Origin: Karstenula rhodostoma CBS 690.94
Lineage: Eukaryota > Ascomycota > Dothideomycetes > Pleosporales > Didymosphaeriaceae
Assembly (NCBI GenBank): GCA_010093485.1
Contig: MU001509.1
Coordinates: 112,972-176,971 of the forward strand
Length of the DNA stretch: 64,000 nucleotides
Direction of reading: 5' to 3'
The position numbers and the translations under genes are program-made. Each line of letters starts with the position of its first letter. Within the stretch, counting starts at the first letter, position 1. The notes under the pieces are model-generated. The model saw only the letters and a list, made by a program, of their open reading frames with translations. It made no database searches and had not been told where the DNA came from. Positions 5,669-64,000 of the stretch are shown one piece after another.

Positions 5669-5763
5669 GAGTTGCATAAGTTAGCTGGTATATTCTCCGC
5701 TATCCCTCGCTAGTCTCGAAGTCCCACACCGCACACACCACCACCAAAAACTTGCCGAAAAAA

Positions 5764-5882
5764 ACATACAACAGCGGGGATTCGCTGCTGGTCACCCACG
5801 CAACTACTGATCCGCCGGTACACTGCTTATATATGGCTGAGCGGACGGGAAGCCTAGTTTTCAGTGTCCTATGGTCGTATGT
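5764..5882 (-). rRNA. 5S ribosomal RNA (dispersed copy)
   Basis: Read on the minus strand, the 119 nt begin ACATACGACCATAGG, contain GCTTCCCGTCCGCTCAGCC and GTGGGTGACC, and end CGCTGTTGTATGT followed directly by a run of seven T, the RNA polymerase III stop. This is the fungal 5S rRNA consensus. Terminal helix I (ACATACGAC with GTTGTATGT) is intact. Helix II is changed from the usual sequence, but both sides changed together (ACACTG with CAGTGT), so pairing is kept. In Pezizomycotina 5S genes are scattered singly, which fits this position. It may be expressed or a decaying variant; the preserved pairing favours the former. Confidence 0.85.
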
Positions 5883-8099: not shown

Positions 8100-9170
8100 A
8101 CTGCGACGACACAACACGCGACTTCATATCTTGCCACTAGGCTTTCAAGCAGCTACTTGAGCAAGGTTATGGTCTCTCAAAATGGTGTAATGTGTATTCC
8201 GTTGAAATACTGGACAAGAGAACTTCAAGTGCTTGCTATGCAAGATGTGTTCCTTGGCCCCGCGATGGAATTGATGAGCCCTGGGTTGCCTTCGATTCTA
8301 TTCAAATACTCTAAAGTCAGCTGGCAGACATAGTACCATATGCCCAAAGCCTTTAGGACGGGTAACCATCGCTACGCCAAATACATCCAAGATTCTTTTC
8401 GACGGTACTTGTCTATGAGTGCCGAGGAACGCAGTGCCGCATGTAGTGTAGATGGCTGGGCTAGTCTTTGAAGGGCTGCAGCTTGAAATAAAATGATCAA
8501 AGTTATTTTATGCATTTATACTACTGGGGGTATGTTTCCAATTTACTACTTGAATCCGATCAGCTGGTTGAGCGACAAAAGCTAATCGACGATTAGAATC
8601 AGCATGAATCCTGCAAATCTCGTATCTTGGCTTTTAGCCCATATATTATATATTGAGAGTCACATGGAACTCATTCGAGCCGAGACAGATTCAGCCTTCA
8701 AAGCAGACGGAACTCTCGACACCTATTATCTTGTCAACTCATGTCCGCGTCTCGAATCAGTATGGTACGAGGTCCTTCGACTTTACAATTCCGTTACTAC
8801 CGTTTGTTATGTTACTAAGGATACTATACCCCACGATTTTCATCTCAAAAAAAGTCACGCTGTTCTGTTTTCTGCAAGACAAATGGCGTTTCACGACCCA
8901 CGTCTAGGCGAAAACCCGCTCCAGTTTGACTCAACAAGATTTTTTCAGATCCAAAGAGGAAGTACCTAAGCAGCCATCGACACTTTGGCGGGGGGGAATA
9001 TGTATGTTGTGGTCGCCATATCACCGAGCATGACCACGCTGCTTTTGAGAAGATAGTGTACGGTTGGCCTTTCCGCAGAAATTCCCAGGCGTCTATGAGA
9101 ACGAGCCTAGCATTGGAGTGCTATTGAGTAACGATGACATCTATTTGCAATTTGAGGAACGCTCGTAGGG
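8100..9170 (+). pseudogene. decayed cytochrome P450
   Basis: Pieces of a fungal P450 appear in order on the plus strand in different frames. First come a WTRELQVLAMQDVFLGPAM segment and IQDSFRRYLSMSAEERSAA. At 8604-8969 there is a K-helix (ESVWYEVLRLYNS, with ExxR), followed by the meander residues ARQMAFHDPRLGENP and FDSTRFF. Near 8975 comes a heme-loop remnant FGGGEYVCCGRHIT. Frame breaks and in-frame stops separate the pieces, so no working enzyme can be made. The segment order and motifs resemble the CYP7/CYP8-like fungal P450s. Its own pathway is unknown; it may be debris of an older metabolite cluster to the left of the RiPP genes. Confidence 0.6.
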
Positions 9171-10570: not shown

Positions 10571-11756
10571 TCAATCCAGTGGTACCCCATGATCCTCTAC
10601 GAGCTCTCCGCCAATCTCATGGTAGGCATATGTACCGACGGGTATGCTATTCAGGGACGTTTGTTTGAGCAGGTCTTCGAATCCCACAATCGTCCAAACG
10701 CCCAATGCAGCTAAAACGGGCAGGCACTCAAGCGTGTAGAAGAATATCTCGTTGTGCATCAGTACCAGCAGGTGTCCCGTGAAAATTCCCGAGAGCTCAA
10801 TGAGACGGTACGCTACTCTCGTGAATATGGCTGCAAGGCTGAAGATCAAGGAGTAGATCGTCGAGCGGCATTTGTTCGACAACTGACTGGAGACATAGGT
10901 CGCTTTTGCTCTTAAATCGACAACCTCGTTGTCTCTCAATTTCTTGTGGAGTAGGATGGCTATGATGGACACATAAACCACGAGGACTTCTTGAACACCG
11001 ATGCCGACGAGATAAAATTTGAGCCCAATTATGGCCGTGCTGGAGCCGCTGCCTGATGGAGACGATCTATGCTTCGGAGCGATGAGTACACTGGCGACGA
11101 GTTGCTCAATTGCAAGAAAAGGAATCGTGACGAGAAGTACCCGTGAGAGAACGCCTCCGGTCACACCGAGAAGTTTCTCATCTTGGCGGTAAGCTGTAAT
11201 CAGTCTTTGAAGGACAGTGCAATCAAGCGCGAATATCACTGCGAACCAAGGCGAATTAGCACATAGGTGGAAAGAAAAAGACATGACGGGAGTCGAGACG
11301 AGCTAGAGTAGTTGAAGGGACGGACTCACATATCGGGCAAACCAAGACCAGTGTGTCAGAAAAAGCCACAAACTCCGGCACTTGCTGATATATCGTACCG
11401 AATGCACGCAGGATGTAGGCTGCCAAGAGGCACGTCGCGACAAGAGCCCCGATCCAAGGCAGCGAGAGGCTATGTCCCCTTGACGGTCCTCTTTCGATTC
11501 GCGGCTGGTGACGGCGAGAGACAGAGCGGGCTATCAGTGACGAGAACCCGAGTAGTACCAAGACTGCAGCGGCGCAAAAGACCAAGGCCGCAACGAAGGA
11601 TGGGTAATAAGGCCGGGAAATGTAGCCGCAGGTTCCAGGAGGTACCCAACCATTGGCATCGGGCTTCACTGTCGTTGTAGGACAATCGTGTGATGGTGAC
11701 GGATCGTCTGGAGCTGAACGGGACGAGACCAGCGGTAGACGAGCGAATGAAATCAT
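10571..11756 (-). CDS. RTA1-like multi-pass membrane protein
   Basis: Two exons (11756-11330 and 11238-10571) encode 364 residues. After a short N-terminal segment come DANGWVPPGTCGYISRPYYPS and about seven transmembrane helices, including FVAALVFCAAAVLVLLGF, PWIGALVATCLLAAYILRAF, FYLVGIGVQEVLVVYVSI and the late NEIFFYTLECLPVLAALGVW. The order and the aromatic/acidic motif in the sixth helix fit the RTA1 family of lipid-translocating or stress-resistance proteins (yeast RTA1, RSB1). The start at 11756 is the in-frame ATG just before the conserved part. It lies next to the RiPP genes and could give export or self-protection, but RTA1-like genes are common in fungi and the link is inference. 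Confidence 0.75.
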
Positions 11757-12330
11757 GGCCACTCGATCAGAAAGACCATAGCATGGTGGTAGATGCGTAA
11801 TAACCAAATATCGGGCAATTGGAGAAGGTCCAGAGAGCAGCGTATTATCAACGAGGCGGCCGAAGAGGGAATGGAGAATGTCACTGTGCAACAAGTGCAC
11901 GCTGCAGTCCCACAGCTCTGGCAACACTAGCCAAGTTCGATAGCCCCCATGGATGATGATCCTTCGGCTAGATGCGGGGTAGAGCGTTGAGGCCCTTACC
12001 AAGATCTTGGAAACAGTGCTAAGCATCCTACGACAAAGATCGTCACTCCTCGCGCGAGAGTTGATAGAGCTTGACAATCCAATTGGGAAGGTAGGCATCG
12101 AACAACCTTAAGAGAGCTTATCAGCATCTTTTCATACACGATGGCCTTCAGCCTAAGTCTTCATTGGTCACTAAATCCATTTGATCCCAGTTCCAGGGGT
12201 TTACAATTGAAAAGTAGTACATTCGTACAGTCATACAGTCGCGCGATTGCTTGCGTTATTCTCCGCACCTAGCAGGTGGTGTTCGTGGGCCAATGTAGAT
12301 ACGCCCTAAATAAAAGTCAGGATCAGATTG
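11757..12330. other. intergenic, no supported gene
   Basis: Spacer holding the presumed promoter of the RTA1-like gene and the 3' end of UstYa-1. The minus-strand frame stays open upstream to 12098 but loses conserved character, so I treat it as untranslated. Confidence 0.45.
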
Positions 12331-13278
12331 TTAGCAAAGGGGGATGTTCTCACCATCGGGCGTAGTAATCAACTTCTCTTCCTCCGAAAAGGAGTGTTGT
12401 CGCGTCCAATCCTGAACAGCATCCCAGTTGACGCACGCCGAATCTACAGTGTTGTTTGCAAATGCAACACCAGGCTTATCAGGGTTCCAAGCAATAGCTC
12501 TGACACCGAGGTCCGGCTGGCAAATAAGCCTTTTCCGTAGAGTCTCGATGCAGTGATCTATATGTGGTGGGAAATAGTGCGCCTCGTCCATATCATAGTG
12601 CTCCGTATGGTTGGCTGTCGGATCATGGGGGTTTGAACAGCGTACTCCCGCTATTTGATGTCGAATGGAATCCAGACAATGGAGATGGTGATAGACGTTC
12701 ATGGAGACCCAGACGTCGCCAGAATCGTCATTTAGAGGGATGCTTTCAAGGTCTAAATCGTCTAAAGATGTTGACGGGACGCGTATTGAGTACCCTAGAT
12801 ATATGACTTGATTAGCAATCCAGGCCTGTGACACGGAGGTCAACCTACTTACCATCCATGAGCTTCATCCATCGTTCTGTCGTTTCTTGAGTTGGAAACC
12901 CCTGATATGGGCTCGTGTGACCATGGCCCTCAAGTTCGTGATGTGTTAGAATCAATGGCCGTGAAGATATGGCCTCGAAGGCCGGTGCTTATTGGTAATC
13001 TCTGTCAGCCTGAACACTACTTGAGGGCGACTAATAGGAAATGCTCCAGACATACAAGGCACCATCGAGTACTGCGCGAGTTGGTCGCTAGCTCCCTGTG
13101 GACGTTCATTGCTAAGGAACAATCCAACAAACACTCCAGAAGTAAACAAAACCACGTTGATTGCCAGATATCGAATGTTCAATGCGCCGCTCCAGCCAGT
13201 CGTATCAAGGTTTCCGTGTGACAAGACCTCTTCGCCATCTTCTTCGCTTCGAAGTTGGGTATACTTTTGGTCCGGCAT
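12331..13278 (-). CDS. UstYa-family (DUF3328) oxidase-like protein 1
   Basis: Three exons (13278-13056, 12987-12853, 12794-12331) encode 273 residues. A cytosolic N-terminus is followed by one membrane helix at about 37-55 (YLAINVVLFTSGVFVGLFL), then the luminal UstYa domain. It has the SPAFEAI motif, then HHLHC at 155-159 followed by LDSIR, and HIDHC at 197-201 followed by IETLR. These paired HxxHC motifs define the UstYa family. Members act in ustiloxin, phomopsin and asperipin biosynthesis, where they oxidatively crosslink or cyclise ribosomal peptides. The first intron splits the Ser codon of SPA. The gene is divergent from the repeat precursor at 13853, with 574 bp between the starts, so the two may share a promoter. 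Family assignment is firm; the substrate is inferred from position. Confidence 0.92.
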
Positions 13279-13852
13279 GGTCCGGAACTGTATGACGAGA
13301 AGCGCGAAAGCCAAATTGAAAATCTGTGAGGGCGTTCGTAGATCGTGACCTCGAGTGTTGTACAGAACGATTGGCCAACTGACTCAGAGCGCTTGAGAGG
13401 CAGTTTCCGTATCAGGACTAGTTGGTGTAGTCCAAGTCCGCGTACCGAAGGTGAGGCAAGAGCAGACAAGAGAGAGTTGGAAATCTAGGCACGCATCTGG
13501 TGCAGCTGAGGATTGATGCAATGAACACGCGCGAGAACCATCTGCCAGCAGGACTGAGGATTCCGAGTCTGATGAATAAGGAAGGTGAGATGTTTACACC
13601 TACGCAAGGTCTGCATAGCAGCTACTTGGCGGGTGGCGGTCACCTTGGCGTCCCACACCGCTTCCTTCAGGATCAACGTACTCCTATGTCGGCCCTTTAC
13701 ACTACAGCCTATCGATAACGTTGCCATACGCTATGTTCTAGGGACATGGTCCAAACCGCCAACCGTTTCGGAACGCGTATATATCAGGCCTCTCTCAATT
13801 GTGATCTTCTCTTCGTCTCACACTACATATCTTGCAATATTCAATATTCAAC
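13279..13852. promoter_or_regulatory. divergent promoter, UstYa-1 / precursor 1
   Basis: This is the 574 bp between two divergent starts. A TATATA box at 13778-13783 lies about 70 bp upstream of the precursor ATG, in a good position for a strong TATA promoter. Open frames in this stretch (13485-13727 minus, 13500-13718 plus) have no protein character. Shared regulation of the oxidase and the precursor is inference. Confidence 0.55.
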
Positions 13853-14442
13853 ATGCGTGTCTCTACTGTATCCGCTATTATCGGGCTCACTGCCGGCTTT
13901 GCCAGCGCAGCTCCGGTGCAGCCCAAAGAAGTCCAGAACCGCGATGCCGATCCCCAGTGGTACGACATCACCTACGTTGACAAGGTGAAGCGCGAGGATG
14001 CCGACAAGAAGCGTGAAGCTGAGGCCCAGTGGTACGGTAAGTGTCTCTTCTCGGGCACCACATCTGCTAAATTTGAATGCTCACCGCTTCAATAGATATC
14101 ACTTACGTCGATAAGCGCGCTGAGGAGGAAAAGAAGCGCAAGGCCGACCCTCAGTGGTACGATATCACTTATGTTGACAAGCGCACCGAGGAGGAGAAGC
14201 GCAAGGCCGACCCCCAGTGGTACGACATTACCTACGTCGACAAGCGCTCTGAGGAGGAGAAGAAGCGTCAGTGGTACGATATTACTTATGTCGACAAGCG
14301 TGCGGAAGAAGAGAAGAAACGCAAGGCCGACCCTCAATGGTACGACATCACCTATGTCGACAAGCGTGCTGAAGAGGAGAAGAAGCGCAAGGCCGACCCT
14401 CAATGGTATGACATTACCTACGTTGACAAGCGCGCTGAATAG
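13853..14442 (+). CDS. Kex2-processed repeat RiPP precursor 1 (dikaritin-like)
   Basis: Two exons, 13853-14036 and 14096-14442, encode 176 residues. A signal peptide of about 19 residues (MRVSTVSAIIGLTAGFASA) is followed by a short pro-region. Seven copies of WYDITYVDK come next, each followed by Lys-Arg, the Kex2 site (the first reads DKVKR). Acidic/basic spacers (AEEEKKR or variants, then KADPQ) separate them. The architecture is that of UstA, PhomA and AprA-type precursors: secretion signal, identical cores, KR sites, no other domain. UstYa-family genes on both sides support a cyclic or crosslinked product; Trp and two Tyr in the core are likely oxidation sites. The single intron splits the Asp codon of copy 2; if it is retained, translation stops soon after copy 1. 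The core is not one I recognise from a described dikaritin. Precursor class is strong; product chemistry is inferred. Confidence 0.9.
13958..14430 (+). repeat. seven coding repeats WYDITYVDK in precursor 1
   Basis: Copies start at 13958, 14030 (split by the intron), 14155, 14218, 14272, 14338 and 14404. Spacing is 63, 54, 66 and 66 bp between the last five. The nine residues are identical in all copies, while the third codon positions differ (GAC/GAT, ATC/ATT, ACC/ACT, TAC/TAT, GTT/GTC). Confidence 0.95.
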
Positions 14443-15011
14443 AGGGGGCAGCGTATGAAGCATGAAATCTGGGGATTCACCCGGAATCTTGTCTGAATAG
14501 GGTAACAGATCGAAAGAGCACCGGTTCGCATAGACAGGTGTAGCTGTATGGCTCTACCATTGGTATACAATGAAACCTATTCAGTTACTATGATCGTGTC
14601 ATCTAAAACTATAGCCTGATATTTTGACCTCTCTTATCGATCACTTAATGCGGGGCAACTCAAACGCTCGTTGTAGTCCGACACCTTCCTCTTTCGGTGA
14701 ACGCGAAGGATCATCACGCACTAGTAGCTGACCTACTTTAGTCTAAAAAGTTGGCCGGCCTTTTGTATCCCATGACCTTTGCGCTCCGAGGCCTAAACCT
14801 TGGCCGCACTCTTGGCGAAGTGTAGTCTATTCACGATAGTCCGCAGAGGATTGCGCACTAGACAAACCCAGCACCTTGCCCTGCCAATCAAGCTGACCCT
14901 GGCTGACGTAACGGCTTGTCTGAGTCCTTCGCCTGAGAGGCAAACTCCAGTCCTCATAATCTAATTTGAGGTTAAGAGAGCATCGTCAATACATTGTGCC
15001 ACTGGTCGGAG
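14443..15011. other. intergenic, precursor 1 to UstYa-2
   Basis: 569 bp holding the precursor 3' UTR and the UstYa-2 promoter. No gene is seen. The UstYa-2 frame stays open upstream to a TTG at 14994, but the first ATG is at 15012. Confidence 0.5.
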
Positions 15012-16001
15012 ATGGATCCGCCGATTGAGCGGATGAGCTTCGAAGATTCGGAAAGTAGTCAGGACAACCACTCTCGTTCGTTGGAAGGGTTGTCGCATGA
15101 TGGAGACGCCGATACAGAGAAGTTCCTTTTATTGGGCAAAGACAGTGGAAGCGTTCACAAAGCGTCTTGGAGAAGTTCCTGGTCCTGGTCAACCAGAACC
15201 ATGGTTTTCGTGACGATTCTAAATGTCTTCTTGTTGTTGGTATCGATAGTGATACTATCAATGTCCACGAAGGGTTCTTTTTCTGATCAGGACTACTGGA
15301 GAGCTACGTCCTACTATTGTGAGGCCGCCCTCATATGTCGATCCAATCTTGCCACTGACCCGATTCTAGCCCCAGTATTTGACCGCTTCAACATCCCGAA
15401 GCTCACGCAAGTTACAAACGGCACATTCTGGAACACGGAACCTCCCTCTATTTGGCGCGCCCGCACAGGCGCCGAAGCAGATGCAGCATGGGAATCTATC
15501 GGAAGCAACATTGCACCCATCATAATCAATTCCGTCGAGGTTCTTGCGCTCGGTAAAGACCCCTCCGTGGCCGTGAAAGCACCTCCCGAACTCAACCTCG
15601 GCTCAGACGCGTACATCGCAGGTATGGACGTCTTCCACCACCTACACTGCCTGGACAAGCTCCGCCGAGAAATCTCATACAAGCACTATCACGAGGCTGA
15701 GGAAGGACCGAGTCCAGGGTCGGAGTTGCATGAAGCACATATCAACCACTGTCTTGATGTGCTTGCGCAGGCATTGAAGTGTACCGGCAGTGTTGATATG
15801 GTTACTTTCAATTGGGTTGAGGGGCATCGGATGCCACAGCCGGACTTCAACAACAAGAAGGTTTGTCGCGATTTCGAAGCGCTGAGGGAGTGGACTGTGG
15901 AGAATGGGGTCGATAGCGATGGATTTTTCAAGGCTGCAGACAAGCCGCCGCCAGGTGCCGTCATCGTGCCTGAATTCCACCCTCATAATCATGGCACATA
16001 A
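15012..16001 (+). CDS. UstYa-family (DUF3328) oxidase-like protein 2
   Basis: A single exon encodes 329 residues. An acidic N-terminus is followed by one membrane helix at about 63-84 (MVFVTILNVFLLLVSIVIL) and a luminal domain. It carries HHLHC at 209-213 (then LDKLRREI), HINHC at 243-247 (then LDVLAQALKC) and the C-terminal CRDFEALREW. The paired HxxHC motifs place it in the UstYa family. It differs from UstYa-1 and UstYa-3: there is no intron, and the SPAxEA motif after the membrane helix is replaced by TSYYCEAALICRS. It is co-directional with the precursor 569 bp upstream. By analogy with clusters carrying two UstY proteins, the two oxidases could act at different steps on the same peptide (inference). 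Confidence 0.9.
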   Translation: MDPPIERMSFEDSESSQDNHSRSLEGLSHDGDADTEKFLLLGKDSGSVHKASWRSSWSWSTRTMVFVTILNVFLLLVSIVILSMSTKGSFSDQDYWRATSYYCEAALICRSNLATDPILAPVFDRFNIPKLTQVTNGTFWNTEPPSIWRARTGAEADAAWESIGSNIAPIIINSVEVLALGKDPSVAVKAPPELNLGSDAYIAGMDVFHHLHCLDKLRREISYKHYHEAEEGPSPGSELHEAHINHCLDVLAQALKCTGSVDMVTFNWVEGHRMPQPDFNNKKVCRDFEALREWTVENGVDSDGFFKAADKPPPGAVIVPEFHPHNHGT

Positions 16002-17153
16002 GAGACATGCTCGTCAAAGATGTTTAGTGCTTCAGTCATCCATTCTTCTTCAGCGATGAATATCGCTTCTTTTCTGTCAAATCTCAGGAGACGAGGCACA
16101 ACGCATAAGCTCAGTCGATCTGAGAGTCCAAACGTGATTGTCTGTGTATCGGTACATGTACTTTGCTCCGTGGGTTGCGACATGGCAGTTCTGCAGTGAA
16201 CGCAAATACCTACATGCATAAAGGCGGCGCCAGTTAACCTCTAATCTTGGGTGGACTCGCGGCTGGCATCCGTAAACTCAAATCGTATATCCCTCTCCAT
16301 ACACTCTCGTGGCCATCTTTAAATCATCGTCAGTGTTATTTTCGCACGGGTTAGACGGTATATCATATCCGTTGAAAGGGTCTGCTATCCAAAGTGGGGC
16401 ATCGACAACGCAACTTTCCAGCAAACTTGTGTAACACTTATCTATCTTCCATGCAAGTACCCGCACCGCTCTTTGCTCACCAGCTGCCGCCGCCACAGCG
16501 CACATATAAAACCAATGTCTTTTCCTTTGCCCCGAAAAAGATACATTCGAGTCCACGGCTTAGTCCGCTTTGCATGTCATCGCGGAACCCAGGCATGACC
16601 AAGGTCAGGACTGGGATCGTTCTTGGCATGATACGCGCAGCTGTTGGCTCTTCTTCCCAGCGGTTGTCACATATATGCCTAGATCAAATAACGGCCTTGA
16701 CACCTCAGTTCTTGCGCATTTTTCTTGGCAAGTACTCCTAACCATGGGCCTACATCTCCCCTTCTCGCGTTTATTTCATGGCGGATTTGAAGTCTCTGCT
16801 GTTTGCAATGATATCGAGTGGATTGAGTTTGACGTCATGCTTGGGGGTGTCTCATTTTTTGTCTCGCAATGCAAACGTCCCCTAAGAGTTGACTGTCTCG
16901 CACTCCGATAAGCAGTTTACACCGGGTGGGCTACCACAAAACTTGTAGAGTCCTTTGTGATTGAGACGTTGCCAGCTACGCGAGAAGTATAAGTCTATGG
17001 CGTACGTGAACTCAGCAGTCCGTCAATCGGGCGCTCTCTCAGGCCAGCCACGTGCCTGATTCCCCCCAGGCAGCAATGTTGACAACATTTCCAAAACCCC
17101 AACAACACCAAAGACTTCCCTAGAACGGTTCATTCCGCACATTCTCACTCAAG
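16002..17153. other. intergenic, no supported gene
   Basis: 1.15 kb. A minus-strand frame at 16278-16556 has fairly natural composition but starts only with GTG and matches nothing known to me. Plus-strand frames at 16394-16911 lack protein character. No RNA gene is seen. Confidence 0.45.
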
Positions 17154-18100: not shown

Positions 18101-19961
18101 TCACCGTTTGAAGCGCAACATCCTGTTAAACCCTCTCTGCTCAATCTCTCTTCGCGCCGCCCCGTCCACAAACTCACCGCCATTCCCATCTCTCGACATA
18201 CCGTCGCCAAACACTCTCAACAACACCACCATCATCCCAGCAGCAAGAATACTCCCACAAAGGATCCCAATCATGACAAGGTTACTTTTGCGGTACTTAT
18301 GCGGACCCTTTGCATCCTCAGGCCATCCTGTGTACAAGGCGTATGTCGTGAGGATGGAGCCGAGGTTGCCCAGTCCGGAGACGAGTGCGGATGCGGCGGC
18401 GACACCGACTTCGCCGTGACGGGGCTGGAAGATTTCGTTCGTCCAGGTCATACAGATGGGCACCGTGGGACCCAGACCGAAGCCGACCTGGTCATAATGG
18501 TCAGCGATCTGTTGTAGAAGAGTACTGGGATGAGGTTCATACGAGAAGGAGACCTCCGTAGCGAGTCCACGATTTCGCGCCGCCTCCAAAGGTGGTCATG
18601 AGGAGGCCTCCAATCTGGATGAGCACTGCGAAGGAGAAGAAACCAGCGCGGTGGTGGTGGAATCGGTCTGAAAGGGGGGTGAAGATCAGGATAGCGATGA
18701 GATCCATCTAAGCCGTATTAGTTCTTGTCCGAAAATCAGAACTCTTGCAGAGGGAACGTACGATCCAGATAGGAGCGGTCAGCAGCGAGAGGTCAATGCC
18801 GGAAAGATCAGGATTGATACCACGGATGATGACTGAAGCATACGCTTGGGTTCCAATGCCGACACCGACGACGCCGAAGTACATAACAACCAATGGCCAT
18901 AACCGCCAGTCGATGACAACATGCCAGAGATCCTTCATTGTCCACACCTTGCGGCGGTACACGCGGGTCAGATCTTCGTAATGGATCCGTGCATCCTCGC
19001 CTGACAGTGCAGGTTTGCTGTCGGGGATGAATTTGCGCCAGGATGGTTTCTCGCGAACTTCACCCGGAGGTAGAGGCCGATCTGGGAGCCACCAGAGCAG
19101 CGAGATACCAACAAGAGTGCCCACGATTCCGTAGAGGAGAAACATCCATTGAAAGCCTACGAGGCCGCCCAGGCCGTCCATCTTCTGGAAGCCGGCAGAA
19201 ACAAGGCCGACGACAGCGGCAGAAACTTGAGAAGCCGTGAAGTAGCGGCCAATCCGCTTGCCAGTCCTTGAAGGCGGGTAGAAGAGCGTGAGGTAGTACG
19301 ACATGCCAGGCCACATGCCTGCAATAACTATACCCAGCAAGAGTCGCAGGAGGCTAGACTAGTGTCAGCAACAGTGTGTGGAGTGTGGCAGAAGAAGGCT
19401 CACTAGAAGCTCCACGCAGCTTTCATACCAGTCAAGCCAATGCCAATGATGCCCACTCCTGTGACGATTCTACTCATCCACACATGCGGACTCAATTTGG
19501 ACATGACTAAGTTGGAGGGCATATCGAAGATGACGTAGCAGACGTAGAACAGGGCTAAACCAGTCGACACTTGCTTGGGGCCCAGATTGAGCTCTGAAGC
19601 GAGGTCGTGGCCTTGGGCGATGTTCATCGTTTGCGCCAGGCCGACGTTGGATCGGATGGCAGAGCACATGAAGTAGAGGATCCAGAAGGCTGAGTCGTGT
19701 TAGGGTTCGGATGGCGGGGCTAGTTTAGAAGAGCAGTACCTGGCAAGATGCGTCGATCGAGCTTACTACTTGTTGTTAGGCGTCGTACAGAGAAGAGCAG
19801 CACTTCACACACCTGTACACCTGCTCAATGCGGTCAATATCCACTGCCTCGGACCCTTGGTCGACATGTTGCTCCTCTATATCGTCTGGCTTGCGTCTAG
19901 GCCGTGCCGACTCGGCCATGTTTTTATTTTCGGGACCCCGCCCAGTTGCCTCTACGGACAT
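18101..19961 (-). CDS. MFS transporter, anion:cation symporter (Dal5-like) family
   Basis: Six exons (19961-19813, 19765-19740, 19689-19404, 19353-18762, 18707-18543, 18487-18101) join to 534 residues in a single frame. The start is the ATG before SVEATGRGPEN. After a hydrophilic N-terminus come KLDRRILPAFWILYF, the usual entry to helix 1 in this family, then GLALFYVCYVIFDMPSNLVM, RLLLGIVIAGMWPGMSYYL and later helices through GFGLGPTVPICMTWTNE. The length and motifs match the ACS/allantoate permease family, which carries vitamins, organic anions and small amides or peptides. A role in moving the RiPP product is possible, but this family more often imports nutrients; ustiloxin-type exporters belong to other MFS groups. 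It is transcribed toward the decayed membrane gene. Confidence 0.85.
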
Positions 19962-20981: not shown

Positions 20982-22004
20982 TCACTCCACAGCAAGATTA
21001 TCTACATTCCATTGCCGAATCTTATCAAAATTCCGACACTTCTGATGCGGTGAAAAATCGAATGTCTCGCCCACCGGAGCCGTCTCGTCGTATCTACCAC
21101 GTCTGTATCAGCAATAGAGCTCTCGCTCAGAGGAAGCGCACATACACGATGAAATAAGGCGTCACATCCACATGGCACATCATGTCTTGCCTGAGGACAT
21201 CGATGCAATGGTCCAGATGCGTGCGGATCAGATTATCGGAGAGCCCATGGAAGTGCTCGGGCAGTGCGCCGTCGCGCGCCATATAGTGGTCCTTGTATGA
21301 CCACATGCGCAGCCAGTCCTGATGGATCCTGTCAGAGCAGTTCTTTTACACAGAGCGGGAGAGGGAGAAGTACCAAGCAATGCAGTTGGTGCATCCCCCA
21401 CAGCAAAGCCGCGCCGCCGCCCTTTGGCGTGCGCACGATGGTGGGGTCTGCAGTGCGGTTCATGCGCGGCCACGCCGACTCGGGAACGTCGAATTCGCGG
21501 TCTGGGTCGATCTTAGCTCCGGGCGTTTCGAGGCGGGGAGATGGATCTTGACGAGCTTACAGTCCCAGAGCTTCAGCCATTGCTCGTCGAGCTCCGGCGT
21601 CGGCTTCCCGCGGTAGTCGGATGCTTGGCGGAAAGTGCCAGTGTAGTCTTCTTCGTGGTACTCTACGGCTTCGAATGCGGGTGCTGGACTTTCGTTAGGA
21701 GCAACGTCACGGCTTAGGTATAGGATCGAGACTTACACCATGTGTAGAGTTGCTTTACGCATTGTGAATCCGTCACAGGGCGCATGTATGCCACCATGAC
21801 AAGAACGATGGAGGACAAAAATAACAATACATTTGCGATGGTTGCGATGGAGAAGCAGTAGCTGAAACGATTTGCCGGCGCGGGTCGCGTTGAATTCAAC
21901 AGTGTCTCTGTTGATTCTGTGGAAGCGTCGGTTTCAATTTTGGCGTAGACCGCCTGCCCACCGGGCGTGCCCCATCGGCCTCTGATCCAGTCTCGGACAG
22001 CCAT
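20982..22004 (-). CDS. UstYa-family (DUF3328) oxidase-like protein 3
   Basis: Five exons are proposed: 22004-21737, 21683-21561, 21516-21374, 21318-21146 and 21102-20982, giving 275 residues. A membrane helix at about 51-72 is followed by LYTWSPAFEAVEYHEED, the classic UstYa entry. Then come HQLHC followed by LDWLRMWSYKDHY, HLDHC followed by IDVLRQDMMC, and the end HQKCRNFDKIRQW. The first intron splits the Ser codon of SPA exactly as in UstYa-1. The second intron (21517-21560, 44 bp) is the weakest: it needs a CGGAG acceptor, and without it a frameshift would lie here. It is transcribed away from precursor 2, whose start is 1.5 kb to the right on the other strand. Confidence 0.85.
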
Positions 22005-23517: not shown

Positions 23518-23973
23518 ATGAAGTTCTTCGTAACTGTCCTGGCTGGAGCCGCGGCTCTGAGCACGGCTTTTGCCGCCCCGATCGAAGGTACGAATCTACA
23601 TGAACTGTAATGGTTACTGGAGAACTGACGCTGGACAGCTACGGAGGCCAACAAGCCCAGCGTTCCTCCGGTCCGAATTCGGCCCAGCATCAAGTCGGTG
23701 GGAGTTTATGCAACCGACGACGGCGAGGCTACCAAGCGCCTCCCTCCGATCCGAATTCGGCCCAGCATCAAGTCGGTGGGAGTTTATGCAACCGATGACG
23801 GCGAGGCTACCAAGCGCCTCCCTCCGATCCGAATTCGGCCCAGCATCAAGTCGGTGGGAGTTTATGCAACCGACGATGGCGAGGCCACCAAGCGCTCACC
23901 CCCGGTTAACGTTAAGCCAAATATCAAGTCGGTGGGCATATACGCTGTGGACGAGCCCACCGCCGAAGATTAG
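23518..23973 (+). CDS. Kex2-processed repeat secreted precursor 2
   Basis: Two exons, 23518-23587 and 23639-23973, encode 134 residues. A clear signal peptide (MKFFVTVLAGAAALSTAFA, cleavage before AP) is followed by a short pro-segment. Three nearly identical 26-residue repeats then contain IRPSIKSVGVYATDDGEA and end in Thr-Lys-Arg, a Kex2 site. A fourth, diverged repeat (VNVKPNIKSVGIYAVDE) ends the protein without KR. Kex2 cleavage would release about three copies of a basic-to-acidic peptide. The design fits either a fungal RiPP precursor (the UstYa-3 gene is the nearest upstream neighbour) or a secreted repeat peptide such as a repellent-like surface protein. The intron after the signal region is phase 1, as in precursor 1. 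The core is unrelated to precursor 1 and I do not recognise it. Confidence 0.85.
23671..23904 (+). repeat. three 78-bp tandem coding repeats
   Basis: Units at 23671-23748, 23749-23826 and 23827-23904 differ from one another at only a few bases; a diverged fourth starts at 23905. The near identity at DNA level, including third codon positions, shows recent expansion or homogenisation. Confidence 0.95.
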
Positions 23974-36021: not shown

Positions 36022-37197
36022 ATTAGAGGTGCTTCGCATCGGGGCTTCACAGACCTTGCGGAACGTCTCAATGGCTGTTTTGATATTTTGCTGGACCGGG
36101 CCCCAACCTGCACTGGTCTATATACCATGTCGTTTTTATGTCGGCGTCGATTGTTGTCTTGGATACGTTTGTTGGGGTATGATGAATAGCGTGCACGACT
36201 TTGATACCAATACCAATGGAGTTGGTTCTTTGCTCTACTATCGTGGCGATTTCCCGCTCATTTCCAGGTGCGTGTTCACCGCAAAGGATACGTATACTGT
36301 TGTGTCCATTCAAAGACTCATCTTCATTACCCAAGGCGTGGCAGCATGCCGATTTCCCCATGCGCGCTACCGTCTCTCGTCTTCTGCTACCTTGTATTTA
36401 CTTGAGGAAGTTTTGACGCGCCAATGCTATGGAAATTGGCCGGGTGGCACGTTTCGATGTGGCACTCTTGCTTGCATGTTCATGTTGTTGTTCTGCTTTA
36501 GTAGACCACCAGTGCACAGGAGTTGCTCGGGTTGATGCCCTGGGCTCTCACGGGAGGGTGAACACCGGCGATACAGTATTAGGCCAAGATTACAAACTTT
36601 TATAGTAAGCTAAGTTACTCTAGGATTAACTATGACTAGCAAAGGTATTAGCTGACATCTGGTCTTTATGTTCCCATGAGAGCCTGGGCTCTTTCGAGAC
36701 ACTATTTTGCATTCTTGATGGACATCATCTGTCTGCCCAGTCCACTTAACACCAATTAGCCTGCAAAAGCCTGTCCTTGCAGCTGCCTCTCACCGCGAGC
36801 GGTTCTCGTGCTTTCCACCGCAACCGCGCCTGCTTCACCTGGCAACCCGCTCCTGCCTCTACTCTCACGGCGCCCGGACTTACTCGGCCTCCGAACGACG
36901 CATATCACACTGCGGTAGTTACCTTCTCTTCTCCCTCACCACCCTCTGTTCATTCGCTACGACGTCCACAAATTGTACCCGCAAGACGCCCTGTGTGAAC
37001 AGTATTTACACAACAAGGTATGTACCCCGCCGCGCACGACTTTGCCAGGAACGGGGGAGCTCGTCTTCACGGACTTGTCGCGCCTGTTGTTACATCTCCG
37101 CCGGACCTGTTCCTCGTGTTTCGCTTTAGGACGAACGAAGCTGACCCCGCAAGTAGCTTTTCCAAGTCTCTCACGACTCCGAACCGATCCAACTACA
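36022..37197. other. intergenic, no supported gene
   Basis: The chitin synthase frame stays open to 36535 if the last intron is ignored, but the spliced stop at 36019 fits better. The rest, to 37197, is the promoter and 5' UTR of the CCHC gene; it holds pyrimidine-rich sequence and no gene. Confidence 0.55.
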
Positions 37198-38919
37198 ATG
37201 TCTGGTTGGGGTGCTGAAGGTACGCAGCTCGCCAAAATATCTGCTCCTGCTGACTTTGTTGCAGCTGGTGGAGACGATAGCTGGGGCTCCGGTGGCGGCG
37301 GTGGCGACACAGCGACTGCCAATGCCGGCGGCGATTCCTGGGGTGCTGGCAACGATGGCTCTGGCAATGCTGGCGGTGGTGATGCTGGAGACCAGACCTG
37401 CCGAGTGTATGTGTTCCGTCTTCGTACTCATCACTACTGCGTGTACTAATATACCGTAGCTGCAACCAAGTCGGCCACTTCGCCCGCGAATGTCCTGACA
37501 AGCCTGAGGGCGGTGGTCTGACGGGAGAGTGCTTCAACTGCGGCGAGGTCGGGTGAGTGAGCACCATTCCTTTAACAATGAGCCGTGATTGCTAACTCCT
37601 CTATAGTCACAACAAGGCCGATTGCACCAATCCCAGGGTCGAACGCCCCTTCACCGGCACTTGCAACTTGTGCGGTGTTGAAGGTCACAGCGCCCGCAAC
37701 TGCCCCACCGCTACTTGCAAACTCTGCGGTGAGCCAGGCCACAAGGCCCTCGAGTGCAAGTCTCGCCGTATGGTCGACTGGACGGGTGTCCCTGAGCTGG
37801 ATGCTGAGGAAGCATGGATGAAGCTTGTCGCCGCATCGGATGAGAGGGACCTCGACGCTTTCCGTCTCTCCCTGCGTGCATACGCTCGTGCCATCGATGG
37901 CGAGTTCAATGTGTCCGAGGTCGAATCTGCCCTTCGCGAATCAGGTCTCAACGTCTTCCTGATTGCTATCACGCAAGAGGTTGCCCCAAACATGACTATC
38001 GTGGACCTCATTGGCAATCCCGACCGAGAGTATGTTCTCACAATCCAGCTCTCTGCGAAGCCTCGCCGTGCGAAGCTGGCACAAGGTTGGCCTGCGGATT
38101 CTGTAGAGAACCTAGAGCGACTCAAATCCGCCGGTTTCGTTCAAGATCGCGGCGTACCTATCTGCTCCAACTGTAACGAGCTCGGCCACATCAAGAAGCA
38201 TTGCAAGCAGGAGATCGTTGAGTACGAGAAGAAGACTCCGATGGTCACTTGTGTCTATTGCCAGGAGGAAGGCCATCGTGCGCGCGATTGCCCGAAGGAG
38301 CGCGTCAACCCTTACGCCTGCAAGAATTGCAAACAGGAAGGTCACAAAGCAGCCGAATGTCCGGAGCCTCGTTCAGCCGAGGGAATTGAGTGTCGGAAAT
38401 GCAACGAGACCGGCCATTTCTCCCGAGACGTAAGTTGGTTCAACTCGCATTGGTAGAGATATCACCGACTAATGTCTGTTGAACAGTGCCCGAACGTCGA
38501 AGCCCGTCCACCTCGAACTTGCCGCAACTGCGGTTCTGAGGATCACATCGCCAAGGAGTGTGACAAGCCGCGCAACCCTGACACGGTAACCTGCCGCAAC
38601 TGCGAGAAGCAGGGTCATTTCTCTCGCGACTGCCCCGAGCCAAAGGACTGGTCCAAGGTCAAGTGCTCCAACTGCGGAGAGATGGGTCATACTATCAAGG
38701 TAAGCGTTCTCCCCACTCAAACGATGCTTCTATTGACTGTTTTAGCGCTGCAAAGAGCCCATCGCAGAAGGCGATGGCACCGGAGATGGCGGTGCCGTAG
38801 GTGGTGGTGGTGGTGGTGGCTGGGATGATGCTGGTGCTGGGGCTGCTGCCTCTGGCGAAGCTCCTGTGACTGCTGGAGGTGAGGACTCCTGGGGCAGCGG
38901 TGGCGGCGCCGCCTGGTAA
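37198..38919 (+). CDS. CCHC zinc-knuckle nucleic-acid-binding protein (11 knuckles)
   Basis: Five exons (37198-37406, 37460-37552, 37607-38429, 38487-38699, 38746-38919) encode 503 residues. A Gly/Asp/Trp-rich N-terminus is followed by four CX2CX4HX4C knuckles. A spacer domain of about 130 residues contains AWMKLVAASDERDLDAFRLS and ESGLNVFLIAITQEVAPNMT. Seven more knuckles follow, and the tail is Gly-rich with repeated DSWGSGGG. The knuckles resemble those of CNBP/Gis2 proteins, which bind single-stranded nucleic acid and regulate translation, but Gis2 has seven knuckles and no spacer domain. Several knuckle arrays are split by introns inside or beside zinc ligands. A role in RNA binding is inferred from the family. 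Confidence 0.9.
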
Positions 38920-39591
38920 ATGTCACGATGGAGTGCTACTGTCACTCGACATGGGCTCGGAGGTATGACCATGTGTCAGAGGGCAAAAAAGCGGATGGGA
39001 TGAGATTCTACGAAACGGTCTCGTATATGATGGCATGGTGTAGGCGACCGGGTTATTGATCAGCTTGCTGCCACGGTGCAAACTGGTGGGATTTGACGGG
39101 GCGATGTACCACAGCAGCTGTGAGATTCTTCTGGATGGGCTCCATATCTTTCTGGCAGTGTAGCGAGATAGTTCTCATGCAAGTATCAAGCACAGCAGCT
39201 CAAAAGCACATGTTGGAGGTGATGAACTAAGTGAGTGGTGATGGTGGGCCGGCCGTGGTGTTGCAGCGGCGAACGGGTCTGTGCACGACATCGAACTTCC
39301 GAAGAGGTCGTCGCCCCACTTCCGCTCCGTCCACCACGCCTCCACGATTGCCGCCACGCCCCCAGCTTTTCCCCGCCGTTCCTGTACTCATTGCACTGAT
39401 CCGGCTAGCAGGAAGCGCATACTCAGCGTTGAAGCACAGCCAAAGGCCTCTTTGTCGGTCTATGGTGCCCGCGTCAGCGCTTCATAGCGGGGTTGTGACG
39501 GCCTGTTGGAGCCCGCCGACGGTTTGACTGACGCACGCGCAGAGCTTCCGTGCAGCACGACACCCACCATCTGAACCGCCGACGCTCAGCC
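38920..39591. other. intergenic, CCHC gene to SNF1
   Basis: 672 bp with the 3' UTR of the CCHC gene and the SNF1 promoter. No gene seen. Confidence 0.55.
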
Positions 39592-55391: not shown

Positions 55392-56449
55392 CGTGTCCTG
55401 GCAGTGGAGGAGCGAAGAAGTCGAGCGCGCGGCGGGCCAAAAAGTTGATCGGCGGGGCCCGGAGGTTTGGCGGGGCACTCCGACGTACCTTCCCTGAGCT
55501 CCCAAATAAAGTAGCTATCTACCTCGACCTCTGCTGTGCAGGCAGGTCACCCGACCATAGTTTTTAGATCAGCGTATACTACCCCCTTATAGGCGTACAG
55601 GTAAATTTTATAGTATATACTAAGGTAGCGCTAAGGCTTAGTATATTATATAAGCTAGATTACCTATAATAAATAAAATTACCTAAATAATTTCTAAATA
55701 TATTTAACTATAATACTATATATATATTTATATAAATAAGTTCTAAATAAGTTTATATAATAATTACTAATATATCTATTAAAAAGCTCCTTTATTATAT
55801 AAATAAATATATTCTAAATATATTCTAGCTTTAATATATAATAACTATTATATTAATAATATCTAGTCTTAGATTACTTATCTAATAGCCTTAGTTCCCT
55901 TTTAATAAATATATAGGTATTTATATTTAAATATATTCTAGATATATTCTAAATATATTTAATTAATAATTTAAAGAAAAAGTATATTATTAAGTATAGT
56001 AAAAATAAGTATAGGGTTTATAAAATAGGTTTAATATATTCTAAACTTATTTAAACCTTTTACTTATATAATACTAGAGGGTATACTAGATTTATAGTAT
56101 TTATATTACCTATATAATTAAGATATATAGTTTTACTATTATAGATTTAATTTAAATATATTTTAAATATATTTACCTACTTTAATTACTAACTTTTTAA
56201 AAATAAATAAAGGATAACTAGGAAAGTACTTCCTTCTCTAGATAAAAGGTAAATATATTTCTAATTTATTTTAAATATATTTAGTCTATTAATTTATATC
56301 TAGCCTACTATAATACTATAATAGTAGCTTATAATACTACTAATACTATAAGTTTAAATATATTTAAAATATATTTAAGCTAATTTTTACTAAGCTTTTA
56401 CTAGGCTTATTACTCTTTTCTCTCTTCTTTCTCCTCCTCCTCCTCCCCC

Positions 56450-57030
56450 TCCTACTCCTAACTAGGTAAGCCCTTTAAATAGATTTTAAATATATTTATA
56501 CTAATATACTTAGAATAATAATAAAGATAAAAAGAAAAAAAAAAAAAAAAAAGATAAAAAAAAGAAGAAGAAAGAGACTACCTTTTTCCCCCCTACCTAA
56601 ATAAGTCCTTTAAATAAGTTCTAAATAGGTTAAGAATATATTTAAACTAATATCTATAGAATAAGGATAAGAATAAAGAAGATAAAGAGAAAGAAATAAA
56701 AGTAAAAAAGAAAAAAAAAAAAAAAACTTCTTTTTCTTTCTTTAGTCTAGTAAGTTTTTTAAATAGGTTTAGAATATATTTATACTAATATCTATAGAAT
56801 AAGGATAAAGAAAAGGAAGATAATAAAAAAAAAAAAGAGATAAAAAAAAAGACTACTCCTTTTTTCTTTACTTAGGTAAGTCCTTTAAATAGGTTCTAAA
56901 TAAATTAAGAATATATTTAAGCTAATATCTATAAAATAAGAATAAAAAGAAGGAAGATAATAAGAAAAATAATAAGGAGGAGGAGAAAGTAAAAAAAGAG
57001 AAAAAAGAAGCCCTTTTTTCTCCCCCTAAT
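56450..57030 (+). repeat. tandem array, unit roughly 130-140 bp, with purine tract
   Basis: Four to five successive units share the order: GTAAGTCCTTTAAATAGGTT, AGAATATATTTA, ACTAATATCTATAGAATAAGG, a long A/G-only tract of 40-70 bp, then a T/C-rich closing segment. Units begin near 56463, 56602, 56748, 56875 and 57031. Related units without the purine tract continue at about 57195-57440. Confidence 0.7.
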
Positions 57031-60000
57031 AAGGTAAGTCTCTTAAATATATTCTTAACTTATTCTAAATATATTCTAGTAAATACTTATATTTTTAGCC
57101 CTTAACTAGGAACTAAAGGAAGAGAAAGAATAGAAAAAAAAGGAAAAGGGCTATTATTATTATTATTACTACTAATACTAGTAGTAGTAAAATTACTACT
57201 AAGGTAAGTTTAAATAGGTTTAGAATATATTTAACTTATTACTAATATATTTAGGCCTCTATCTTCTTAATTATTACTAAGGTAAGTTTAAATAGGTTTA
57301 GAATATATTTAATCTATTACTAATATATTTAGGCCCCTATCCCTTTAATCCTAAAGAGGTAAGGTAGTCCTTAAGGTAATTCTAGTAGTTAAGTAAGTCT
57401 AAATAAATTTAGAATATATTTAAACTATTACTAATATATTTAACTATCCTTCCCTAATAGCCTATTTAAAAGGATAAAGCTAAGTTCTTATAGTAATAAT
57501 AATAGTTATAAAGCTAGCCTTAAGTATAAAGTTTAAATATATTTAGAACTTATTTAAACTAGTTCTAAATATAACTATAAACTATTCTTTAAATAGATAA
57601 TAAAATTCTAAATATAACTCTAAACTATTTTTTAAATAGAAAATAAAAACTAAGTAGTATTTTATATAAATATATTAGTAATATATTTAAATATTTTCCT
57701 TAAATATATTTATAATATAATATAATTACTATTTAATTATATTTAGCTAATTTAAAAGGTTTTTCACGCTAGTCTATATATAGGAAGAATAAGGGGTAAG
57801 AAAGAACTATAAAAAAATCTCTTTTTTTACTTTATAGATATTACTTCTTTATTTATATCCTTTTTTTAAAGTACTTTATTATAATATTAAAACTAGAATA
57901 AAATATAATTCTTTTTATAAATATATTCTAATATTATTTATAATATATTTAAGTAGGCCTTTTACTAAAAGTATACCTAGCTTAGGTCTCTTCCTCCTAG
58001 TATACTAGAGCTTTCTAAAAATATTTCTAGTAAAGGATACTTTATTTACCTTAGGGAACTATACTACTAGGTATTACTATTAAATAATATAGGAACTCTA
58101 CTCTATAGAGTAAATTCTTTTATAGGAATATATTATAAATAAGTTTCTAATATATTTAATAGTATTTTTATAAAAAGGGTATACTTTATACTTATATTAA
58201 GTAATACTATCTAAACTACCCTATTACCTCTAGAAAGACTAGCTAAGCTAGTTTTACCTAAATATTAAAGACTATTATTTAGTATACCTAGCTTATAACT
58301 TTAAGCTCTAAAGATATCTATAAAAAGGATAGCTATATAAGTATAATTAAATATATTCTAAATATATTTAAACTAGTATAAACTATACTAGTTAAACCTA
58401 TTTAAAATATTTCTAATAAATAAAATACTAGTTACTTTCTTATTTACCTAGTAACTTTAGAGAAATAGTATTAATAGGTATTCCTTTAACCTACTCTCTT
58501 TTACTCTACTAATTATATAAAACGCTAGGTAAAAGGAAAAATAAAAAAGTATTACTTCTTTTTAAAAAGTAGCTAATTATTTTAGCTAAATTTAAAAACT
58601 TACTAGTAACTTTTTTTAGCCTTAAAGTTTCCTTCTATATATTTAGTATATAAAAAGAAGAACCTATCTATTTATTCCCTTTAAGGAAAATACTAGGAAT
58701 AGTAATATTTTAAAATAGCTAAGTAAATATATTTAGAATATATTTAAGCTATTTAATATATTTATCTATAGTCCTTTTTTATATAAATTTATCTCTTTTT
58801 ATAGTTTAAATTACTACTTATCTAGCTTAAACTACTCTTTCTAAATAGTAATTTAATCTCTTTATAGTTATAGTACCTCTCGCTTTACCTATAACTTCTA
58901 GTTTTAAATAAAAACTTATTACTATATAGATTAATTTCTACTTAAATATATTAGGATTAACTTTAGAATATATTTAAATTAATATACCTAGAATTTAGGG
59001 AAGATCTAATAGGAGATATTCTTATTAGAGAGAATTCTATAAAAGAAGTTCTTACTAGAGAAAATTTTATAGAAGGAGATTTTATAAAAATAGTCTTTCT
59101 AGTCTTAGCTAAAGGTAGACTACTTAATAGATACCTTACTCTTTCTATATTAATAAAGCTAGATAAGTCTAATATATAGAGTATTTTATCCCTTTTTATA
59201 ATATTCTTAGGTAAATTATTCTCTCTTTACCCTAAATATATTATAAATATATTTATAAAGATTTTACTTAGAATTTACTCTTTTTTACTTATTTACTAGC
59301 CTCTCTTTATATATTAATAAAGAACCTCTAAAATAGGCTTAGAGAACTATAATTTATATATTAAATCCTATATATATCCCTTACTTTATACTCTATAATA
59401 TCTTAAAGATCTATTTATTTTATACTAGAATATATTATAAATATATTCTTAATAGGTTTATATTAATTTACTTTAGAATATCTTTAAGAAAAGGTTATCT
59501 CTACCCTATTTAATATCCTTTATTTCTAGCTTATTTAACTATATTAAAGTATAATTCTATTTAATTCTAAGTAGTTTTAGGTATTAGACTTATATCTTAT
59601 AGTAAGCCTACTATAATTATAGAATATTTCTTATACCTAGTCTAGTTCTTAATACTATCCTATATTAAATTCTCTAGAATATATTAGAAATATATTCTAA
59701 ATATATTTAGTCTTTACTTCTTACTTATAAGAAGATTATATAGTTTTATATATTTAGCCTCTATTCTAATATATAGAAAACTCCTTATTTAATCCTATAT
59801 TATTCCCTAAATATATAGTACTTCTAAAACTACTTTATTAATATTTTAATAAAAGTATATATAATAAAAGTATATTATACTTTAGAGTTACTAATACTAG
59901 TCTTTTAAGTAAGGGTCTAAGATATAAAGTATTTTCCTAAAACCTATAAATATATTTAAATAATATTAGGAATATATTTATTTAGTTTACTTTATATTTA

Positions 60001-61299
60001 CTTTATATCTATATTAACTATAGTACTAAGAAATCCCTAACTATATAGATAATTCTAATAAAGGTCCTTTTAGATAGCCTTACTACTTTTTTAAAAAAAG
60101 TAGAGTAAGCTATCCCTATATATTAATAGGGATTTAGAGTTAGTAATAATTTAGCTAAGAGTAATAACTAGAACTTATTAGGAATATATTTAAGTAAAAT
60201 AATTAATAAACTATACTTTTACTATACTTCTTATAAAAGATAGTAATAAGAATTTTAGACTATTTCTTTTTAAATCTCTTATAAGATATATCTATTTAGA
60301 ATATTATCTATAAGAAGAGAATTTTTACTTATTAGTTATAGAAATAGACTATATAGTTAGCTAAAACTATTATAGTAATATCTTAAATATAATACTAAAT
60401 ATATTAGAAATATATTTAGGTAAATATATTTAGAATATATTTATATAAATATATATTTCTACTAGATTCTATAGGTATCTTATATACTACTTATAGAGAA
60501 TACCCTTAAAACTATACTTAAATAGGAAGGTAGTAAGCTTTTTATATTTTATAATTTACTAAATTTAGTTTTTATTAGTAAAGGTAGTATTTAGTTCCTC
60601 TAAATATAAAATATTTTACTACTATAAATAGACTAGTAGTTATAGAGAATTTAGAAACTAGGCTAAATCTATTACTAATATATTTTAAATATATTTCTAT
60701 AGATAAGCTTATATCTACTTAATATTAGTATAAGTATTAGATAAAGAATATTATAAATCTTCTCTAGCTAGTCTTTTAGAAGAAAGTATAGTAGTAGTAG
60801 AATATAAAAGTAAGTTCTAGATAAAATAAAAATATAGTAGAGAGTTTTTACTAGATTAATAGGAATAAGAATAAGAAATTTTACTAGATAGATCTCCTTT
60901 ACTATTATTAGATCTACTATAAATAATAATAGATTACTATAAACTATAGATATAGATAGGTTAGTTATATATTATATAATTATATAAATTATTATAATTA
61001 ATTATTATTCTAAGTCTAGTTAAGATATATCCTTAAAATAGTATCTTAGTACCCTATACTAGTTCTAATAGTATAAAATATCCTAGCCTCTCCTTTTATA
61101 TTTACTACCTACTACTATTAGTAGTTACTATAACTTACTATAATAATAAGTATACTATACTATAGGTAATAATATATATATATAATCTAATATACCCCCT
61201 TAGCTTAGTACCCCTAGGCTATCTAAGCTAGATTATAAGTAATAGCTTAAAGTACTTAGTAAAAATAGTCTTAGATTTCTTTAAGTAGTATAGTACTTA

Positions 61300-63600: not shown

Positions 63601-64000
63601 ATATAAGGCTAGAATATAGCTAAATAGGGTAAATACTCTTAGAATTAGATATATAGAAGAAACTATATAAATTAAGACTAAACTTAAGATACTAAGATAG
63701 AGAGGGTCCTAGGGAGGGACTCTCTATATACTAGGTATTTAAGATCTACTAACTAATCTATATATAGGCCACTGGATAAGGCCTAAGCTTAAAGGTAGGT
63801 AAATATCCTATAAGGGGATTTAACCTTAGGTTAAATTAACCCTTATAATAAAGAATATTTTATATAATAAGTACTAGTAATTTTTATAATTTAGTATTTA
63901 ATTATATAGGTATACTATAGCCCTAGTAATCTTAGGCTATATTTCCTATAGAAGGTTTATATTAAATTATATTATATAGGCTTTTTCTTTTATTATACCC

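Follow-up and report, generated by a model that had tools for sequence, protein, structure and literature searches.

The window, a 64,000-nucleotide stretch of the genome of Karstenula rhodostoma CBS 690.94, contains a two-exon gene for a repeat peptide precursor, which sits between two genes for UstYa-type oxidases (UstYa-A and UstYa-B) at about 0.57 kb from each. The parts of these genes and features from the wider neighbourhood are as follows:

8586..8966 (+): P450 piece matching PF00067, profile positions 282–388 of 462
10574..12107 (−): RTA1-like membrane protein, a possible accessory gene; PF04479, E 4.9e-13 on 10574–11302
12256..13278 (−): UstYa-A, 282 aa, four exons (13278–13056, 12987–12853, 12794–12354, 12305–12256)
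12676–12690 and 12550–12564 (−): UstYa-A motifs HHLHC and HIDHC, respectively
13853..14442 (+): precursor gene, two exons; start codon ATG at 13853, last base of the stop codon at 14442, both exact
13853..14036 (+): precursor exon 1, placed by reading frame and splice site; putative signal peptide, core 1, then three residues and one further base of core 2
13955..13981 (+): core 1; spacer DADP before it, preceded by NR rather than KR; KVKR after
14027..14112 (+): core 2, interrupted by the intron; spacer EAEA before, KR after
14037..14095 (+): precursor intron, 59 bp, inside core 2; canonical (GTAAGT...ATAG, after G and before AT)
14096..14442 (+): precursor exon 2; remainder of core 2, cores 3–7 and stop
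14152..14178 (+): core 3; spacer KADP before, KR after
14215..14241 (+): core 4; spacer KADP before, KR after
14269..14295 (+): core 5; no spacer, directly after KR; KR after
14335..14361 (+): core 6; spacer KADP before, KR after
14401..14427 (+): core 7; spacer KADP before, KR after
15012..16001 (+): UstYa-B, 312 aa, two exons (15012–15318, 15370–16001)
15636–15650 and 15738–15752 (+): UstYa-B motifs HHLHC and HINHC, respectively
18711..19358 (−): major facilitator transporter piece, a possible exporter; PF07690, E 1.5e-16

The spliced precursor has 176 residues. As a preliminary description of this DNA had it, the protein opens with what by inspection resembles a signal peptide (MRVSTVSAIIGLTAGFASA, with AP following the presumed cleavage site) and carries seven identical cores, here QWYDITYVD starting at residues 35, 59, 81, 102, 120, 142 and 164; no other domain is apparent on reading. 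The intron interrupts the Asp codon of core 2, which is restored exactly on splicing, and the unspliced reading of exon 1 meets a stop at 14095 to give 80 aa with a single full core. That description had also placed KR after every core, which holds for six of the seven but not for core 1 (KVKR), and had given the core as WYDITYVD, a string present in all seven repeats although the nonamer beginning with Gln is the likelier mature core.

The nonamer occurs seven times against a maximum of one in 2000 shuffles, and a chance repeat was rejected on this ground. At the DNA level the copies vary at 8 of 27 nucleotide columns and all eight differences are synonymous. Since 91 of the 567 possible single changes in the core (16%) are synonymous, the naive probability of obtaining synonymous differences only is about 4e-7. 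The DNA has drifted at synonymous positions only; the peptide is thus under selection and was not merely copied recently. A scan of the 44.3-Mb assembly with the pattern Y-D-[LIVMF]-x-Y-[IVM]-D-K returned six of the seven cores and no match elsewhere (the backward control gave three matches), one core being missed because the intron splits it. A protein search of the genome was likewise confined to the two exons of the precursor locus.

Both flanking genes belong to the UstYa (DUF3328) family by their matches to Pfam PF11807, at E 1.9e-22 for the main exon of UstYa-A and 1.5e-49 for UstYa-B, and each possesses both HxxHC motifs. These motifs are invariant in alignments of 11 and 10 sequences of UstYa relatives, and DUF3328 proteins act as binuclear copper enzymes through HxxHC(x)nHxxHC, as shown for CctR (PMC12435403). 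UstYa-A and UstYa-B resemble each other only remotely (28% over 116 residues). The splice model of UstYa-A agrees with its relatives, the UstYa-B intron is backed by relative P0035, and in these two genes and the precursor the frames are intact and the introns canonical. Want of a UstYa association was one ground on which the preliminary description was prepared to give up its reading; the opposite was found, with UstYa genes on both sides of the precursor.

The genome (44.3 Mb, 29 contigs) contains 59 UstYa match pieces which, when those within 600 bases are merged, fall into about 42 loci, both counts being lower bounds as for any large family. The chance of two such genes lying no more than 2 kb from the precursor is about 7e-6, a figure which presumes random placement, and cluster genes are not randomly placed; at 6 of the 42 loci a further UstYa lies no more than 5 kb away. 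Among solved DUF3328 structures a sequence search with UstYa-B alone gave no match, and two UstYa profiles gave weak unrelated matches only (best E 0.9 and 0.11). None of 102 pattern matches to UstYa-A relatives in viral contigs was confirmed and the DNA of 12250–16010 had no match among plasmids, as expected of a fungal gene.

The precursor has ten matches in a protein search (E 6.3e-58 to 2.6e-3), all with related cores. They include N0V90_009502 of Kalmusia sp. IMI 367209 and DM02DRAFT_676584 of Periconia macrospinosa, both annotated as hypothetical or uncharacterised, which resemble the Karstenula protein in their cores (QWYDISYID and AWYDITYID) but possess three full copies each rather than seven. 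We collected 32 complete cores, seven of them from the window, with a pattern in which YDxxYxD was fixed, so that the constancy of these residues is partly by construction; the variants include QWYDLTYVD, QWYDLVYVD, QFYDVSYID, QFYDISYID, QWYDISYID and AWYDITYID, with I, L or V at position 5. Copies falling outside YDxxYxD are QWFG at the intron in P0008, QWYDITYMY in P0010 and QWYAWG in P0006. Judged from predicted proteins, by a Gly read-through after QWY, QFY or QWF or an exon start at DI[TS]Y, an intron at the same core codon occurs in eight of the ten relatives, P0006 and P0007 giving no sign of it. In P0009 the intron is apparent in each of two consecutive repeats, and the repeat has therefore seemingly been duplicated together with it.

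The oxidases have relatives of their own, found with a 273-aa model of UstYa-A lacking the last exon and an unspliced 329-aa reading of UstYa-B. The best named match of UstYa-A is from Bimuria (75%), while those of UstYa-B are from Paraconiothyrium brasiliense (84% over 68% of the query) and Paraphaeosphaeria minitans (80%), and its relatives reach Colletotrichum and Aspergillus at 37–57% identity. The best named matches are those to be expected of a Didymosphaeriaceae-like member of the Pleosporales. Based upon equality of contig size in bases, from which co-location might be inferred, precursor and UstYa-A relatives would share a contig for three of the ten precursor matches: P0001/P0024 (6733 bases), P0004/P0020 (39246) and P0007/P0015 (53507, both Periconia macrospinosa). 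By the same token UstYa-A and UstYa-B relatives would be linked in Bimuria novae-zelandiae (625023) and Periconia digitata (3687698). The contig sizes of the ten precursor matches do not recur among the 48 UstYa-B matches, and linkage of precursor and UstYa-B is thus seen only in the Karstenula window. No Kalmusia protein is among the matches listed for UstYa-A or UstYa-B. Named fungi with close UstYa-B proteins, P. minitans and P. brasiliense among them, gave no precursor in the protein search, perhaps since the gene was left unannotated.

We consider it likely, from the features read in the sequence, that the gene specifies a precursor of the dikaritin type, from which UstYa enzymes would make a modified peptide, as the preliminary description proposed: the repeated cores of a putatively secreted protein, their dibasic sites and two adjacent UstYa genes bearing HxxHC(x)nHxxHC are all present. 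The current definition, as given in PMC12048977, takes DUF3328 as the defining feature of dikaritins, and repeated cores with dibasic sites do lie here beside a DUF3328/UstYa gene; the original five-gene definition, also quoted there, included a tyrosinase and a methyltransferase. Neither Pfam analysis of 70 open reading frame pieces nor a motif search revealed a tyrosinase at the locus, and of 33 tyrosinase match pieces genome-wide none is on the contig carrying the precursor (C18); in this the locus departs from the older definition. The 70 pieces also gave no methyltransferase match, in a scan which can miss pieces of multi-exon genes, and no match to an S41 peptidase. The Y-x-I of the ustiloxin and phomopsin subtype is found as Y3-D4-I5 in all seven copies.

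Unlike ustiloxin and phomopsin, which need a tyrosinase, the locus appears to have none on its contig, which would place its pathway closer to that of asperipin-2a. The Aspergillus flavus asperipin-2a system (AprA/AprY) has, according to PMC6514808, a secreted multi-core precursor, a UstYa-type oxidase and an aromatic-rich core with several Tyr, as here, and its four-gene cluster also lacks a tyrosinase. It differs in its core (FYYTGY against QWYDITYVD), in having one UstYa gene where Karstenula has two flanking ones, and in its reductase aprR, to which nothing similar was matched among the 70 pieces. Ustiloxin B (UstA) and phomopsin (PhomA) share with Karstenula a repeat precursor, KR sites and at least two DUF3328 genes, and their four-residue cores, YAIG and YVIP, share Y-x-I with it (PMC7329392). 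UstA cores are described as flanked by ED and KR (PMC6514808), in place of which we find X-A/X-P spacers; the proteases which trim the ustiloxin core were reported as unknown in that 2019 review. The epichloecyclins (GigA) are cyclic nonapeptides with Tyr in the cross-link, likewise derived from a secreted multi-core precursor with probable Kex2 processing (PMC9233826), but their precursors are reported to be without the Ste13 signature (PMC6339444) that is present here.

This signature, on which the preliminary description did not remark, consists of X-Ala/X-Pro dipeptides and precedes six of the seven cores of the window precursor. Forty-one spacers were listed by hand from the window and the ten relatives and then checked by computation: their lengths are 4 (34 spacers), 2 (3), 6 (2), 0 (1) and 5 (1), so that 40 of the 41 are even. 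Within the 15 distinct even-length spacers A or P occupies 29 of 31 even positions, against a background of 17.7% of 992 non-core residues, while eight different residues occur at odd positions; these counts are not independent, the spacers being homologous. Exceptions are KSDP, DAADAA and the odd-length KAGDP. Some spacers in relatives follow a single R (NR, TR, AR or PR) instead of KR, as does that of core 1 in the window. Core 1, lying after NR and ending in KVKR, may therefore be processed at other sites or yield a longer peptide.

The spacers suggest a dipeptidyl aminopeptidase of the Ste13 type and define the first residue of the core, predicting a nine-residue product which begins with Gln. 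Core 5 lies directly after KR, and Kex2 alone would thus yield the same N-terminal Gln as Ste13-type trimming of the other six. Taken with the residue variation in relatives, the fixed N-terminus and the spacer-free core 5 permit a precise mass prediction. The calculated [M+H]+ of linear QWYDITYVD is 1202.536, falling to 1200.521 on loss of 2H and to 1198.505 on loss of 4H; for the pyroglutamate forms the corresponding values are 1185.510, 1183.494 and 1181.479. The genome has one P_proprotein (Kex2-type) match and three matches to DPPIV_N, one of them weaker. One of the DPPIV_N genes (contig C13, 847778–848902) encodes GWSYGG and, around residue 101, a hydrophobic membrane anchor, features which would suit a Ste13-like enzyme; a second has a signal-peptide-like start. 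The weak third match (two stops in the read-through) is on contig C8, in the region 390509–393015, about 1.6 kb from a UstYa piece at 392896–393015, a dipeptidyl-peptidase-like gene thus adjoining a UstYa gene.

The following pathway would be consistent with these features. In the Golgi Kex2 would cut after KR, a Kex1-type carboxypeptidase would remove the K and R, and a Ste13-like dipeptidyl aminopeptidase would remove the spacer as KA-DP, EA-EA or DA-DP, whereby all copies, core 5 included, would become one nonapeptide with N-terminal Gln, perhaps as pyroglutamate. UstYa-A and UstYa-B, acting as membrane-bound binuclear copper oxidases, would then oxidise this peptide. We would place the first crosslink most likely as an ether joining Tyr3 to the beta carbon of Ile5, because Tyr is linked to Ile within Y-x-I in both ustiloxin and phomopsin (PMC7329392); against this, relatives carry Leu or Val in place of Ile5. 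A second crosslink might be made from Tyr7. The product would be exported and would probably act outside the cell.

Probably, then, the locus makes a modified peptide which has not been described. The preliminary description knew of no product with this core, and the literature searched did not contain WYDITYVD, nor QWYDI, WYDISY, FYDVSY or WYDLTY. The family is not categorically new, given the 1758 repeat precursors with DUF3328 neighbours counted by Umemura 2020 (PMC7329392), among which it may stand unnamed; what is new here is a core family with spacers of the pheromone type. According to Le Marquer et al. (PMC6339444) the X-A/X-P (Ste13) signature in Ascomycota is generally that of alpha-pheromones only, being absent from the precursors of toxic cyclic tetrapeptides and of epichloecyclins. 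Of 76 relatives of six putative basidiomycete pheromones, 17 have DUF3328 neighbours (Umemura, PMC7329392), so that the combination is not unheard of. Karstenula offers an ascomycete example of pheromone-type processing together with UstYa neighbours, which bears on the proposed origin of such metabolites from linear secreted signals.

We might tentatively go further, with somewhat less than even confidence, and suggest a hybrid precursor family in Pleosporales in which pheromone-like N-terminal trimming by Ste13 is coupled to modification of the cyclic-toxin type by paired UstYa oxidases, giving a cross-linked peptide. Were this true, we would have a pheromone-like precursor at, or descended from, the transition of linear signals into cross-linked metabolites proposed by Umemura, the class of protease which finishes the core N-terminus would be named, and the product may be a secreted signal and not a toxin.

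The spacers are also what would be expected if QWYDITYVD were released unmodified by Kex2, Kex1 and Ste13 as a linear signal of the alpha-pheromone or hormone kind, the UstYa genes being unrelated. Ascomycete alpha-pheromone precursors do have a signal peptide, repeats and Kex2 sites followed by X-A/X-P dipeptides, and precursors with this signature have been proposed as peptide hormones (PMC6339444). X-A/X-P follows Kex2 sites here too, though with a single R before some of the spacers. The genome has a gene for the Ste2 receptor (contig C1, E 5.8e-75) and no match to PYG[LM]P[IV]G, the pheromone motif of Pleosporales, searched as an exact DNA pattern, whereby the mating pheromone gene of this fungus was not located. 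Nevertheless both types of core described for Dothideomycete alpha-pheromones are unlike QWYDITYVD, which has neither PYGxPxG nor two cysteines (PMC6339444), and pheromone-annotated precursor genes are reported with DUF3328 neighbours in three cases only (PMC7329392). The two UstYa genes flanking the precursor, and the three relatives of ten on a contig sized as that of a UstYa-A relative, make a linear product unlikely, and we retain the reading as a dikaritin-type precursor.

Possible further members of the cluster are the RTA1-like gene, whose upstream piece (11259–12107) has no Pfam match, and the major facilitator piece. The P450 fragment at 8586–9124 (+) has a heme-type motif, FGGGEYVCCGR, and no recognisable N-terminal half in the reading frames scanned; it is possibly a relic. 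A third gene of the UstYa type, UstYa-C, is at about 21130–22004 (−); it contains the pair of HxxHC motifs, and two of its pieces match Pfam (E 1.4e-11 and 4.1e-8). Five splice trials each lost the reading frame, either before or after the first HxxHC, and the gene may therefore be decayed or have an unusual intron. It lies 1.5 kb from a second Kex2-type repeat precursor (23518–23973, +; 134 aa) with a signal-peptide-like start, MKFFVTVLAGAAALSTAFAAP, the two being about 7–9 kb from the first precursor. This gene has one 51-bp intron (23588–23638) and is a single locus in the genome. It encodes four units of about 26 residues, of which the first three end in KR and every one contains SVGVYATDD or SVGIYAVDE; the strings SVGVYA and PSIKSVG were not found in the literature searched.

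The fragmentary P450 piece, with its partial PF00067 match at 8586–8966, and the want of a clean splice model for UstYa-C in five trials would suit a silent or decaying cluster, in which the genes are still recognisable and nothing is made now. We regard this as quite unlikely, the frames and introns of the precursor, UstYa-A and UstYa-B being sound and the core copies being under purifying selection. Repeats and a signal peptide, taken alone, would also fit a secreted repeat protein with a structural or surface role, comparable to Ustilago Rep1, in which the dibasic sites are incidental; this is very improbable given a nine-residue core which is invariant between variable linkers and drifts at synonymous sites only, relatives which retain related cores and spacers, and the flanking UstYa genes.

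Elsewhere in the genome, on contig C17 (about 36929–39129), UstYa pieces at 36929–37813 lie within about 1 kb of a tyrosinase match at 38484–39129, possibly an ustiloxin-like cluster. Within the window the GC content drops sharply to about 20% over roughly 55500–64000; AT-rich blocks resulting from repeat-induced mutation occur in some Dothideomycetes, and this block is similar. A 5S rRNA gene is located at 5763–5882 (−; 75.8 bits).
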